From Agromyces kandeliae (GTDB taxonomy: Bacteria > Actinomycetota > Actinomycetes > Actinomycetales > Microbacteriaceae), in NCBI RefSeq assembly GCF_009674665.1, contig NZ_WKJD01000002.1, positions 62,001-126,000 of the forward strand: DNA of 64,000 nucleotides. Direction: 5' to 3'. Shown here piece after piece: positions 3,729 through 30,644 of the stretch (position 1 is its first letter; each line of letters begins with the position of its first letter). The position numbers and the translations under genes were made by a program. Below the pieces are notes generated by a model. It was not told the DNA's origin and made no database searches. It saw nothing but the letters and a program-made list of their open reading frames with translations.

Positions 3729-4280
3729 ATGGAGGCACCGGGCAGCACCACCCTGGTCGTCGTGGGCGAGGAGTCGACCGCCGCGATCGGATCCCTCGCG
3801 GGGCTCGCGAACGTCGAGAGTGCCACCTTCGCGGAGATGACGGATGCCACCGACGCCGAGGTCGTCACCTGGTCGAGCACCTCGCACGCGCCGTTCGTCG
3901 TGCACGACCGCGATCCGCTCGGCCACGTGGCATCCGCCTGGGTCGAGTTCTACGACGAGCGATCGACGCTCGGCGTCCTGCAGCTCGAGATCGAGCAGGT
4001 GATCGATGCGGTCGCCCGGCACGAGCTCCGGGTGCCCGACTACTACGTCGTCCTCGAGCCCGAGGCGCTGCGCGGGACCTGGATGCACTGGTGGCTCGGC
4101 GTCGTCGCCGCGGCGTCCCCGAACCGCGTGCTGCCGTGGGAACCGGGTGATGCGCCCCTCGCCGGACTCATCCGTCGGCTGCCGACGGCTCGGGCGTGGC
4201 CCGAGGTGCACCGGTGGCTGCCGGGAGTGGTGCGGGCCGTGCCCGACCGCGTCGGGCCCGGCCTCCCCGGCGCAGCCTGA
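3729..4280 (+). CDS. Hypothetical protein
   Basis: A 183-aa protein with no signal peptide or clear membrane segment. It has a Trp-rich middle (GTWMHWWLGVVAAASPNRVLPWEPGD) and the recurring pattern DRDPLGHVASAWVEFYDE. I recognise no family; it looks like a soluble lineage-specific protein. Codon use is like the neighbours, and the ATG follows a purine-poor leader. It ends 15 bp from the end of the convergent sheath gene. Confidence 0.6.
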   Translation: MEAPGSTTLVVVGEESTAAIGSLAGLANVESATFAEMTDATDAEVVTWSSTSHAPFVVHDRDPLGHVASAWVEFYDERSTLGVLQLEIEQVIDAVARHELRVPDYYVVLEPEALRGTWMHWWLGVVAAASPNRVLPWEPGDAPLAGLIRRLPTARAWPEVHRWLPGVVRAVPDRVGPGLPGAA

Positions 4281-4295: not shown

Positions 4296-5408
4296 TCAGT
4301 CGTGCGCGGGCAGTGCGTGCGCCCTGATGTGCAGGACCACGAACTCCGTAGGGCGGATCGGTGCGAACCCCACGAAGACCGGCAGGTCGCCCGCATCGAG
4401 GTCGCGCTGCGAGACCGTGTCTCGGTCGCACTTGACGAAGTACGCGCGATCGGGGGAGTTCCCCCGGAACGCGCCGACCCGGTACCGCTCGTGCAGGAAC
4501 GCCCCGACCGATTCGCGCACCTCCTCCCAGAGCGCCTCGCCGTTCGGCTCGAACCGGGTCCACTGCAGGCCCCGATCCAGGCTCTCCTCGAGGAAGAGCG
4601 CCGTGCGGCGCACCGGCACGTACTTCCAGACGCTCGCCGTCGCGTCAGCGCCCGCGAGGGTGCGCGCGCCCCAGACGACCGGCCCTCGCCCCGCGAACGT
4701 GCGCAACGTGCTGATGCCCGACGTGTTGAGCGAGTCGGCATCGCGGTTCCCGAGGTCGAACTCGAGGCCGTCGGCGCCGCGGACGTCCGCGTCGGTTCCC
4801 GCCGGTGCCGACCAGACGCCGTGCGACGCGTCGGTGCGCGCGAAGACGCCGGCCACCGCCGCCGAGGCGGCGAACGTCTCCACGGACCCGGCGCGCGACG
4901 GGTCCGGGCGACGCAGGCGCGGCGCGTACAGGGCGGCGTTGGCACTCGAGGTGCCGACCGCGGCCTCGGCGCCCGCAGAGATCGCGGCGCGGATCGCCTC
5001 GAGGCTGGTCCACGACGCGGGCGGGTCGACGAGCAGCATCGCCCGTCGGCGTTCGCAGAATGCGACCGCCTCCGCGACGACCTCGCGGGCGTCGGCGTGC
5101 GCCGCCGACTCGGCTGGGAGCACCAGCAGGTTGACGAGGTCGACCTGGTCGAGGGCTTCGAGGCCGAGCCGGACACCATCGATGCCGGCGTCGGCGACGC
5201 GCACCGCCACTGCCGAGACGCCGCCGTTGTCGAAGAACGAGCGCAGCGCGCGTCGCAACGGCGAGACGTGCAGGTCGCCCCAGATCGCATCCTCGTCGGC
5301 GGCCCGTCCGTCGACGTCGATGTCGACGGGCTCGTCGAACGGACCGTCCTCGGCGAGGCCGAAGAATGCCGTGTCGGCCGTTGCGACGCCCTCGATGGGT
5401 CGCGTCAT
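4296..5408 (-). CDS. Orphan contractile tail sheath protein, N-terminal arm missing
   Basis: A 370-aa homologue of the contractile tail sheath subunit of phages and extracellular contractile injection systems. It runs from the sheath's early block (RPIEGVATADTAFFGLAEDGPFDEPV) through RSFFDNGG and ALEALDQVDLVNLLVLP, CERRRAMLLVDPP and GVFARTDASHGVWSAPA, to the C-terminal VVWGARTLAG, VPVRRTALFLEESLDRGLQW, FEPNGEALWEEVRESVGAFL, AYFVKCDRDT and IRPTEFVVLHI. Complete sheaths start about 15-20 residues earlier with a PGVYVEE-type arm that links subunits; here Met lies 3 residues before RPIEGV, with a strong GGGAGGTGG ribosome site, and nothing sheath-like is encoded upstream. No tube, baseplate, spike or AAA gene is nearby. 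The function is unknown; it may be a domesticated sheath. Confidence 0.9.
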   Translation of the reverse strand: MTRPIEGVATADTAFFGLAEDGPFDEPVDIDVDGRAADEDAIWGDLHVSPLRRALRSFFDNGGVSAVAVRVADAGIDGVRLGLEALDQVDLVNLLVLPAESAAHADAREVVAEAVAFCERRRAMLLVDPPASWTSLEAIRAAISAGAEAAVGTSSANAALYAPRLRRPDPSRAGSVETFAASAAVAGVFARTDASHGVWSAPAGTDADVRGADGLEFDLGNRDADSLNTSGISTLRTFAGRGPVVWGARTLAGADATASVWKYVPVRRTALFLEESLDRGLQWTRFEPNGEALWEEVRESVGAFLHERYRVGAFRGNSPDRAYFVKCDRDTVSQRDLDAGDLPVFVGFAPIRPTEFVVLHIRAHALPAHD

Positions 5409-5457
5409 CGGCCCCACCTCCCGTGCCCGGTTGCATCGAGCGGATGCCTCGTGGCCG

Positions 5458-5486
5458 AGCCTCCTCCGGTCGGTCGCGGGTGTCAA
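5458..5486 (-). promoter_or_regulatory. Candidate sigma-A-type promoter of the sheath gene
   Basis: On the minus strand, TTGACA (5486-5481) and GAGGCT (5463-5458) are separated by 17 bp, about 50 bp before the sheath start. This suggests that the sheath gene has its own promoter instead of depending on the hydrolase gene 157 bp upstream. It was read by eye only; the -10 matches only the key A and T. Confidence 0.45.
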
Positions 5487-5565: not shown

Positions 5566-6411
5566 TCAGGCCGCGGGACGCCCGGGTGCAGGCTGGGCCT
5601 CGGCGTGCTCGAGGGCCCACTCCAGTGCGAAGTCGGCGACCTCCTCCCATCCGTCCTGGCTGACGATGCGGTGCGTGCGCCCGGCGAACTCCCGGTGGTC
5701 GACGACGGCCGGGCTGCCCGTCCTGCGGTACTTCCGGACGATGGCGCGGCCGATGGCCGGCGGCACGACGTGGTCGATCTCGCCGCTGATGACGAGCAGC
5801 GGCGCACGGTCGGTGCGGCCGTAGTCGACGTGGGTGACGCCGCCCTTCTCGTTGATCGTGGAGGCCACGCCCTCGAAGAGGACCCGGTTGTACGAGTTGA
5901 CGGCGTACTCCTCCCAGATGCGGTCGGACGCCTCGCGGCTGAGGTCGTTGCCGAACGTGAAGTGGAAGTGGCCCTTGGAGATCGGCTTGGCGCCGTTGCG
6001 GTCGAACGGATTGGAGAGGATCGGGAAGCCGGTGCGGAGCGTCGCGGGCGGCAGGGTCGTGATGCCCGCCGTCTGGCCGGGCGTGACGCCGACGTAGGCG
6101 ATGCCGAGCCCGCGGTCGGCGAGCATCTGGGTGATGACGCCGCCGAACGAGTGGCCCATGATGATGGGCTTCCGCGGCAGCGCGCGGATGATCCGCTCGT
6201 AGTGGTCGGCGATCTGCTTCAGCCCGATGCCCTTCAGCGGTCCGGGGTTCGAGCGGATGTCGGCGACGGAGCGATCGTCGATGCCCGGCCAGCCGGGGAC
6301 GATGACGTCGTGGCCGAGTGAGCGGAACCGCTCGGCCCACGTGTCCCAGCTCTTCGGGGTCATCCAGAGACCGTGGATGAGGACGATCGGGGGCTTCGCG
6401 GCGGTGGTCAT
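5566..6411 (-). CDS. Alpha/beta hydrolase, TetR-controlled
   Basis: A 281-aa alpha/beta hydrolase. It has the oxyanion HG in LIHGLW (residues 13-14), the nucleophile elbow GHSFGG with Ser88, a late acid residue (SGEIDHVVPP) and a C-terminal His (FAGRTHRIVSQ). The family acts on esters, lactones or epoxides; the substrate is not evident. The start at 6411 has GGAGGAG close upstream. The gene is divergent from a TetR regulator, and a perfect palindrome sits between them, so it is probably repressed by that regulator and induced by its ligand. A detoxification role is an inference from this common pairing. Confidence 0.88.
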   Translation of the reverse strand: MTTAAKPPIVLIHGLWMTPKSWDTWAERFRSLGHDVIVPGWPGIDDRSVADIRSNPGPLKGIGLKQIADHYERIIRALPRKPIIMGHSFGGVITQMLADRGLGIAYVGVTPGQTAGITTLPPATLRTGFPILSNPFDRNGAKPISKGHFHFTFGNDLSREASDRIWEEYAVNSYNRVLFEGVASTINEKGGVTHVDYGRTDRAPLLVISGEIDHVVPPAIGRAIVRKYRRTGSPAVVDHREFAGRTHRIVSQDGWEEVADFALEWALEHAEAQPAPGRPAA

Positions 6412-29566: not shown

Positions 29567-30589
29567 TCAGGCGGAGCCGCGCCAGACGATGTCGCAGTCG
29601 AGTCGCACCTCGGTCGCCGGCTCGTCGCCGCGGAGGCGCGCGAGCACGAGGCGGGCCGCCTCGGCGCCGAGTCCGGCGGCGGGCTGACGCACCGTCGAGA
29701 GCGCGGGCGTCGTGCGCTGCGCCCAGGCGCTGTCGTCGAACCCGACCACGCCGATGTCGTCGGGCACGCTGCGCCCCGACTCCTTGATCGCCTCGATCGC
29801 GCCCGCTGCGACCGCGTCGGATGCCGCGAAGACGCCGTCGAGGTCGGGGGCGCGATCGAGCAGCCGCCGCATGCCGTCGCGACCGGCGGAGTACGAGTAG
29901 AGCGGCACGGGTTCGACGAGGGCTTCGTCGAACGCGTCGCCGAGCGCCTCCCGGAAGCCCGAGAGCCGGTCGGCGCCGGAGTCGCGGTCGAGCGCCGCGG
30001 CGATCATCCCGATGCGGCGGCGCCCCGTCTCCATCAGCCTGCGGGTGATGGACGCGGCGGCGCCGACGTTGTCGATGACGACGAACGAGGCGGAGCCCGC
30101 GGCTCCCGGCGGGTGGCCGACGTACGCGGCGGGGAGTCGGAGTCGGTCGACCACTCGGGTGACCGGATCGTCGGCGCGCGCCGAGACGATGATCACGCCG
30201 TCGACGAGCCCGCCGGAGAGGTATCGCGCGACCCGATCCGTGTCGCGCTCGGTGTCGACGATCAGCACGGCCATCTGGTGGTCGGCCTCCGACAGCCGGG
30301 TGTTGGCGCCGAGCAGGATCTCGCCGATGTTCGGGTCCTCGACGAACAGGGAGTGGGGCTCGTGGACGATGAAGCCGACGGCCTGGGTGCGCTGCATGAC
30401 GAGGTTGCGCGCCGCCGTGTTCGGCACGTACCCGACCTTCGCGATCGCCGCCTCGATCGCCTCGCGCGCGGCCGCGGAGACGTAGCGCTCGCCGTTGACG
30501 TACCGGCTCACGGTGCCGCGCGAGACGCCTGCCTCGAGGGCGACGTCGTGCACGGTGGCCCGCTTGGAGCGCGTCGGCTTCGTCGTCAT
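29567..30589 (-). CDS. LacI family regulator of the galactoside operon
   Basis: A 340-aa LacI-type repressor. The DNA-binding head is ATVHDVALEAGVSRGTVSRYVNGERYVSAAAREAIEAAIAKVGYVPNTAARNL, with the hinge just after. The body is a periplasmic-binding-protein-like sugar sensor (GFIVHEPHSLFVEDPNIGEILLGANTRL, IGVVGFDDSAWAQRTTPALSTVRQP). ATG 30589 is taken as start because it lies about eight residues before the head, but no strong ribosome site is seen. It is divergent from GH42 and two operator copies lie between them, so it probably represses that operon until a galactoside binds. Confidence 0.92.
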   Translation of the reverse strand: MTTKPTRSKRATVHDVALEAGVSRGTVSRYVNGERYVSAAAREAIEAAIAKVGYVPNTAARNLVMQRTQAVGFIVHEPHSLFVEDPNIGEILLGANTRLSEADHQMAVLIVDTERDTDRVARYLSGGLVDGVIIVSARADDPVTRVVDRLRLPAAYVGHPPGAAGSASFVVIDNVGAAASITRRLMETGRRRIGMIAAALDRDSGADRLSGFREALGDAFDEALVEPVPLYSYSAGRDGMRRLLDRAPDLDGVFAASDAVAAGAIEAIKESGRSVPDDIGVVGFDDSAWAQRTTPALSTVRQPAAGLGAEAARLVLARLRGDEPATEVRLDCDIVWRGSA

Positions 30590-30615
30590 GCGACTCACTG
30601 TAGCGCTGAGGGGTG

Positions 30616-30644
30616 TTGACATCGGGGAGGCGGCGAGCCACTCT
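30616..30644 (+). promoter_or_regulatory. Candidate promoter of the galactoside operon
   Basis: TTGACA at 30616-30621 and a weak -10 CACTCT at 30639-30644 are separated by 17 bp. The first LacI operator begins inside this -10, which would let the repressor block polymerase. Confidence 0.45.

Follow-up and report, generated by a model that had tools for sequence, protein, structure and literature searches.

Contractile machines are the setting in which sheath proteins are known. According to the available part of PMC10329688, the subunits of the extended E217 sheath are joined only by a C-terminal hairpin and by N- and C-terminal arms. The N-arm comes from the subunit above and contributes one strand to a four-stranded sheet, and the C-arm strand comes from a neighbor that is slightly above and rotated. 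The arms of the Milano sheath are likewise described as forming the mesh (PMC10811340). The unassembled diffocin sheath CD1363 is a stable monomer with its C-terminal strand folded back (PMC6088184), and the accounts available describe some purified prophage sheaths from working machines as remaining monomeric. Since sheaths of working machines can be monomeric when purified, a monomer alone is no proof of a new role. For the solitary sheath protein described here, we favor, on balance, the reading that it is a sheath core that has been exapted and has ceased to build a contractile sheath.

The original prediction placed a sheath protein without its N-terminal arm in the window (the whole 64-kb stretch of DNA that was analyzed), and the open reading frame, the domain matches, and the alignment with 8bky all agree with it. 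The frame lies exactly where predicted, starts with ATG, and encodes 370 amino acids followed by a stop codon; its product begins MTRPIEGV. The product matched PF04984 (Phage_sheath_1; E = 1.6e-17, 64.3 bits against a curated cut-off of 31.4), PF17482 (Phage_sheath_1C; E = 1.5e-6, 28.6 bits against 26.9), and the PHROG "tail sheath" profile (E = 2.4e-48). Its best match in a PDB sequence search was the Streptomyces coelicolor sheath (8bky; 199.6 bits). None of the NCBIfam models matched it, and a search of the protein (P0001) with the PADLOC models gave 0 families at an E value of 0.01, that is, no match to a known anti-phage defence protein. By these matches, the orphan is a true sheath protein. 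The features of the locus are listed in Table 1.

Table 1. Features at the orphan sheath locus, with positions in the window
Feature	Position	Strand	Remark
Orphan arm-less mini-sheath gene, 370 aa (Phage_sheath_1 + Phage_sheath_1C)	4296..5408	-	Domain, PDB, and model matches
C-terminal strand and tail, residues 355-367	4308..4346	-	Strand kept; Q363/G366/Q367 motif replaced
Helix 291-310	4479..4538	-	Presumed from its position to be equivalent to the tube-attachment helix of other sheaths
Ribosome-binding site GGGAGGTGG	5414..5422	-	Read from the sequence
Conserved promoter-like element TTGACA-N17-GAGGCT	5458..5486	-	78 to 50 bases ahead of the start codon
Upstream neighbor, alpha/beta hydrolase (ordinary; outside the feature)	5566..6411	-	
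Downstream convergent neighbor, 183 aa (outside the feature)	3729..4280	+	No Pfam, PADLOC, or NCBIfam match

The gene is shared by relatives. Full-length orthologues (group A) were found in 9 of 60 Agromyces genomes, including the genome under study, and G021 carries a fragment of 126 codons at the start of a contig, so that nine further Agromyces genomes have the orphan (eight full-length copies and one cut by the contig end). It is absent from the other 50 genomes. Four further Agromyces genomes contain an orphan sheath that is free of the insertion but armed (group B; L068, L069, L070, and L071). In these the SPGVFVREV arm is kept, the insertion is absent, and the genomes have no tube match; genes for a P-type ATPase and a molybdopterin oxidoreductase lie nearby (assigned to families in L069, with homologues in all four). 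Among the 30 Agromyces genomes with a PF04984 match, orphans are the only sheath matches in 11.

The PGVY-type N-terminal arm, which inserts into the handshake sheet of a neighbor, is absent from the orphan, whose chain begins at the post-arm linker. Residue 2 pairs with residue 18 of the S. coelicolor sheath 8bky (Cis2) in the sequence alignment, residue 1 pairs with residue 17 of Cis2 in the structure alignment of the predicted model, and I5 aligns with I21 of Cis2. As the linker directly behind the Cis2 arm is described as I21-G25 (PMC10066040), the start of the orphan lies no more than a few residues from the point at which the arm passes into the linker. An upstream start encoding the arm was not found, and no arm-like motif was detected in the three forward frames of the 600 bases upstream of the start in the 11 orphan loci tested. 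In seven of the nine group-A proteins, RPIE follows the chosen start by no more than two or three residues. The G044 orthologue has 17 residues ahead of RPIE, without an arm motif, and the G058 orthologue has 22, ending GPFEEIASGA, which look like a worn arm. A PGVY-like motif was seen in 52 of the 61 sheath rows whose N-terminus was long enough, indicating that the motif is common but not universal. Group B and the orphan of G1159 (see below) are still armed, indicating that solitude does not require loss of the arm.

An AlphaFold model from a 68-row alignment, in which only two rows were group-A proteins and the remainder were other sheaths, reached a pLDDT of 92 and a pTM of 0.91. It has the two-domain sheath wall fold with the core intact; the chain begins past the position of the Cis2 arm, as the original prediction led one to expect. 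A model from 16 rows was set aside (pLDDT 64.7, poor C-terminal half). The closest structures are sheaths, with 9gts from S. coelicolor at Z 37.1 (rmsd 2.1, 326 aligned; Foldseek E = 1.1e-29). The alignment with assembled sheaths mostly stops at residue 352, whereas that with three crystals of free sheath proteins (6gkw, 3lml, and 3hxl) extends to 363-366. The model thus suggests that the C-terminal strand is folded back on its own chain, as in diffocin CD1363, but AlphaFold might fold this strand back for any sheath monomer, so that the folded-back strand is weak evidence.

The orphans were compared with 16 armed sheaths of a type that we call second-type CIS sheaths; this set was chosen by us and leaves out the Streptomyces-type rows L039, L041, L044, L047, and L049, as well as L046, for which no start was located. 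The armed set has 103 invariant positions. At 57 of these, every one of the nine group-A proteins has the armed residue, and at 10 not one does, namely K200, T220, G225, L257, I297 (changed to V), L299, N343, Q363, G366, and Q367. Group B retains K200 and partly N343 and is without L299, Q363, G366, and Q367. The tail motif of the C-arm, Q..GQ (Q363, G366, Q367), was therefore found in 16/16 armed relatives and 0/9 group-A proteins. The C-terminal strand of group A (EF, then mostly V, I, or L) and the acceptor hairpin are retained, with N343 the hairpin position among the ten lost. L299, also present in all 16 armed relatives, is replaced by E in the orphan, and the remaining group-A orthologues have E, K, D, or R at this position; it falls in the helix presumed to correspond to the tube-attachment helix that is named for other sheaths in the available parts of PMC6088184 and PMC8894135. 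In a broader set of sheaths, Q363 occurred in 49 of 66 rows, G366 in 40, and L299, evidently not a general feature, in 22. The changed positions in the C-arm and the helix could reflect drift away from the CIS type picked for comparison.

These residues bear directly on a second reading, in which the orphan forms a single ring or a short non-contractile oligomer. Its C-terminal strand would still be donated to a neighbor, and there would be no links between rings because the N-arm is missing. The retention of the C-terminal strand and the acceptor hairpin in group A fits this, as does the geometry described for E217, in which the C-arm strand comes from a near-level neighbor and the N-arm from the subunit above (PMC10329688). 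The Q..GQ tail motif and N343 of the hairpin are, however, replaced in all nine group-A proteins, and we regard a ring as possible but doubtful.

The original prediction also included a clean ribosome-binding site and a probable promoter of the gene's own. The ribosome-binding site, GGGAGGTGG, was seen ahead of the start codon, and purine-rich stretches precede the starts of most orthologues. A simple sigma-70 scan found no promoter upstream of the orphan, but aligning the upstream regions of the orthologues revealed the sequence CTTGACR..GAGGCT, which supports the predicted promoter. TTGACR-N17-GAGGCT is exact, 72 to 78 bases before the start, in seven of the nine group-A orthologues. G044 has a variant with N18 spacing and CAGGCT, the element was not found upstream of the G007 orthologue, and it is not common to the group-B starts. 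A scan of Agromyces stretches totaling 1.04 million strand-bases gave no exact match besides the seven orthologue copies; a looser N16-18 pattern gave four matches in the whole genome under study, and a reversed control gave one. Judged from the element, transcription probably starts about 40 bases ahead of the ATG, which would leave no room for an arm. The orphan is probably transcribed separately. The neighbors tested encode an alpha/beta hydrolase, an epoxide hydrolase, EI24, and a member of the endonuclease/phosphatase family, in an order that varies between genomes, and neither a shared operon nor a conserved partner adjoining the orphans was found. Because the neighbors are ordinary and the gene order varies, no partner is claimed. 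No neighbor is conserved well enough to hint at a partner or a process.

With 17 injection-system proteins as queries, the window and the preceding 40 kb of the contig yielded the sheath itself but no homologue of a tube, spike, baseplate, or AAA protein, so that neither a normal cluster within a few kilobases nor any of the partner genes said to be missing from the vicinity came to light. Tube, spike, baseplate, AAA, and eCIS_core genes forming one cluster were not found around the orphan. Nor was any other injection-system homologue detected up to about 9 kb from the 13 full-length orphans of Agromyces groups A and B. Positions 30113-30619 (+) of the window weakly resemble the eCIS_core protein encoded in the genome's cluster elsewhere (E = 1.7e-4); no Pfam family matched there, and the resemblance possibly reflects composition only.

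The search of the whole genome for contractile-injection genes, which had been proposed as a check, revealed a full injection-system cluster on another contig (C22:113530-131213). This cluster encodes two tube proteins, a CIS_tube/LysM protein, a spike-type protein (Phage_base_V and GPD), Baseplate_J, AAA, and eCIS_core proteins, and a sheath of 522 amino acids with a normal arm. The orphan shares about 39% identity with the C22 sheath, and the two fall in different parts of the sheath tree.

Tube proteins (PF06841) were matched in 20 of the 60 Agromyces genomes. Among the ten carriers of the orphan, two tubes and a sheath of normal length were matched in each of G000, G052, and G021, and the cluster proved complete in G000 and, by homology, in G052. 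G044 has a single lone tube, and no PF06841 match was found in the remaining six (G030, G036, G020, G013, G007, and G058) or in the four group-B carriers. The lone tube of G044 is an open frame with its own ribosome-binding site (L109:9794-10216, +), and its surroundings resemble, by eye, the genes beside the C22 cluster (sheath and tube families searched genome-wide). Tube and normal-length sheath matches occurred together in 3 of 10 carriers and 16 of 50 noncarriers (Fisher P = 1.0); with group B counted as carriers, the proportions were 3/14 and 16/46 (P = 0.51).

These counts do not support, as the general role of the protein, the suggestion in the original prediction of a decoy for, or a regulator of, a system encoded elsewhere in the genome: there is no association with the cell's own cluster (P = 1.0), and in 6 of 10 carriers the tube search gave no match. 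As a decoy or dominant-negative subunit acting on contractile tails, whether of the cell's own system or of an incoming phage, the orphan would accept arms, donate no N-arm, and end or misdirect assembly. The model shows an intact core, arms donated in the direction described for E217 would make an arm-less subunit a dead end (PMC10329688), and three carriers do have tube and normal-length sheath matches. However, the orphan differs in sheath type from the cell's own cluster, it has no PADLOC match, and residues in the interface region are changed rather than kept. The phage matches reach at most 34% identity over 57% of the protein (best 12 of 91 records). A decoy role is therefore considered improbable.

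A tree of 55 sheaths (548 columns; G733 was dropped for too few columns) placed group A, group B, and the orphan of G681 in one clade with a support of 98/95. This clade is one branch of an unresolved fork that includes the second-type CIS sheaths (100/100). Group A alone had a support of 97/90 and group A with group B 88/84. The orphan of G061 branches with another sheath type. G681, G061, and G036:C4, among others, are on long branches, so that their exact places are unsure. The G021 fragment was excluded from the tree and from the selection and residue counts. All nine full-length group-A copies are open frames without stops. The dN/dS ratios of nine pairs ranged from 0.16 to 0.54, all below 1: five group-A pairs gave 0.22 to 0.36, the most distant pair (G000 and G058) gave 0.54, and three group-B pairs gave 0.16 to 0.42. 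These results show that the orphan gene is under purifying selection.

Such values are hard to reconcile with a dispensable remnant of a lost cluster that is on its way out. The patchy presence (10 of 60 genomes) would suit a remnant, as would the tube left alone in G044, in a region that by eye is like the flank of the C22 cluster. Against it stand the open frames of all nine full-length copies, dN/dS below 1 in all nine pairs, the promoter-like element kept in 7 of 9, and the orphan of an order-mate within the clade, making a remnant very improbable. The orphan is neither a lone oddity nor a ruin; it belongs to a conserved arm-less sheath branch, mostly in genomes in which no tube gene was found. 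That it is a specialized sheath subunit, supplied in trans to one end of the sheath made by the cell's own cluster, is hardly credible: several different sheath proteins do occur in some injection systems (the Afp2-4 and Pvc2-4 chains in the PDB; three adjacent genes in the available part of PMC9230969), but six of ten carriers have no tube match and one more has only the lone tube, the orphan is missing from 16 of the 19 Agromyces genomes in which a tube and a normal-length sheath were both matched, and the presumed tube-helix position and the C-arm motif are changed.

Exaptation of the sheath core is thus the reading that we develop here. It starts from what the data establish about the gene, its conservation and selection, the conserved promoter-like element, its solitude, the fold predicted for its product, and the loss of both the arm and the C-arm motif. 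An arm-less sheath kept under selection, mostly in species in which no tube was found, has probably been put to some other use. A sheath gene of the type present in Streptomyces and in the Microbacteriaceae genome of L117 may have ended up alone in an ancestor. In the orphan lineage the insertion domain on the surface would have been lost, and so would the N-terminal arm in the Agromyces line examined; from then on the sheath core would have been passed down as an independent gene under a promoter of its own. Lack of the N-arm removes one of the strands by which subunits are interlaced, and an interlinked contractile sheath would therefore not form. The protein is most likely located in the cytoplasm, either as a soluble monomer with its C-terminal strand folded back or as a small oligomer formed by C-strand exchange, and may act as a binding or scaffold protein for something other than a tube.

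It seems somewhat more probable than not that the orphan represents a conserved family of free-standing sheath proteins that lack the arm and function apart from any injection machine, under their own promoter, in tube-less bacteria. The original expectation that the protein is domesticated and unlikely to polymerize as a normal sheath has gained from the nine additional carriers, the purifying selection, the promoter-like element, and the changes in the arm, the C-arm, and the helix. Similar losses may have occurred more than once: in Agromyces group A, in G061 with its other sheath type, and possibly in G681.

Beyond the genus survey, matches were obtained in 8 of 398 genomes of a family sample and 52 of 396 of an order sample, both of which include some Agromyces. 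Most of these matches cover only the part behind the insertion and lie in longer frames, as judged by frame length and matched range. In a class sample, 63 of 394 genomes had matches. Outside the order, the insertion-free matches examined were G1159 and G1115, and in the latter only the sheath was found in 14 kb. No orphan of this kind was among the best 20 of 122 plasmid records or the best 12 of 91 phage records. The short matches G561:C18, G479:C56, and G476:C49 proved to be armed sheaths within clusters, and a match on a Paracoccus plasmid (H1), the one plasmid record inspected in its surroundings, is annotated beside tail and baseplate genes; these candidates were rejected as orphans.

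Several other solitary or unusual genes were seen during these searches. G061 has an arm-less orphan of another sheath type in a genome without a tube match (L118:9260-10438, +); the gene upstream of it presumably encodes an S-adenosylhomocysteine hydrolase, to judge by its sequence. G681 has an arm-less orphan in the clade of groups A and B, also in a genome without a tube match (L151:8851-10071, +), and its stop codon overlaps the GTG start of a gene for a PALP/CBS-domain enzyme. A short armed orphan sheath occurs in G1159 (L265:9284-10432, +), where no other injection gene was found within about 9 kb and another sheath match lies elsewhere in the genome. A further armed, insertion-free orphan in G036 (L073:8983-10182, +) is convergent with the gene for a DUF4062-nSTAND1-HEAT protein, which has a weak PADLOC match (PDC-S60). 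Besides the usual injection cluster, the genome of G012 has another of a different type at C39 (L074). In G451, a protein of 305 amino acids (L152:9387-10304, -) is a fusion of a YCII-related domain (PF03795, 25.2 bits against 24) and PF17482 (2e-15), and a lone tube lies on C4 (L267:9393-9860; only sheaths and tubes were searched).

A sheath without an arm that is under selection in tube-less genomes would mean that the sheath core is useful apart from contraction. Together with the YCII-sheath C-domain fusion and the lone tubes, repeated losses of this kind would mean that single parts of contractile machines are a recurrent raw material for new cellular proteins. The orphan also offers a natural arm-less variant for testing the role of the N-arm. 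Annotation will probably give such genes no other name than phage tail sheath, the name borne by related plasmid genes. This would hide them, and they could mislead surveys of injection systems that count sheath genes. In the literature searched, no paper on an orphan, solitary, or exapted sheath of this kind was among the titles listed (in one search the best 15 of 27); most subscription papers were outside its coverage, and this is not proof of absence. Titles listed for Agromyces or Microbacteriaceae with a sheath or injection system likewise included none on such a protein.

The closest armed relatives found are the second-type CIS sheaths of Streptomyces and Kitasatospora (L037-L050) and of another member of the Microbacteriaceae (L117). 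They share 46 to 51% identity with the orphan in the best segment (49% for the L117 genome). With the arm and the insertion, both of which the orphan lacks, they are 530 to 642 amino acids long in the Streptomyces-type rows extracted and 550 in L117, whose sheath gene adjoins a tube gene, unlike the orphan. A predicted one-domain sheath of 321 amino acids from Bathyarchaeota, as described in the available part of PMC9230969, lacks about 30 N-terminal residues present in a phage sheath; it is given there only as a structure model, and the account does not mention solitude, conservation, or loss of an arm. CD1363 (PDB 6gkw) is a two-domain sheath like the orphan, whose model aligned with it over residues 1 to 363. 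In contrast to the orphan, CD1363 keeps an N-terminal segment, helical in the monomer, and has a partner tube, CD1364, according to the part of PMC6088184 available. Cis2, the sheath of the cytoplasmic injection system of S. coelicolor (8bky, 8bl4, 9gts, and 9gtp; described in the available part of PMC10066040), has the wall domains and the post-arm linker in common with the orphan. Cis2 has in addition residues 1-16 (the arm), a flexible third domain, and a full system, whereas the orphan has neither arm nor third domain and no adjoining partners.
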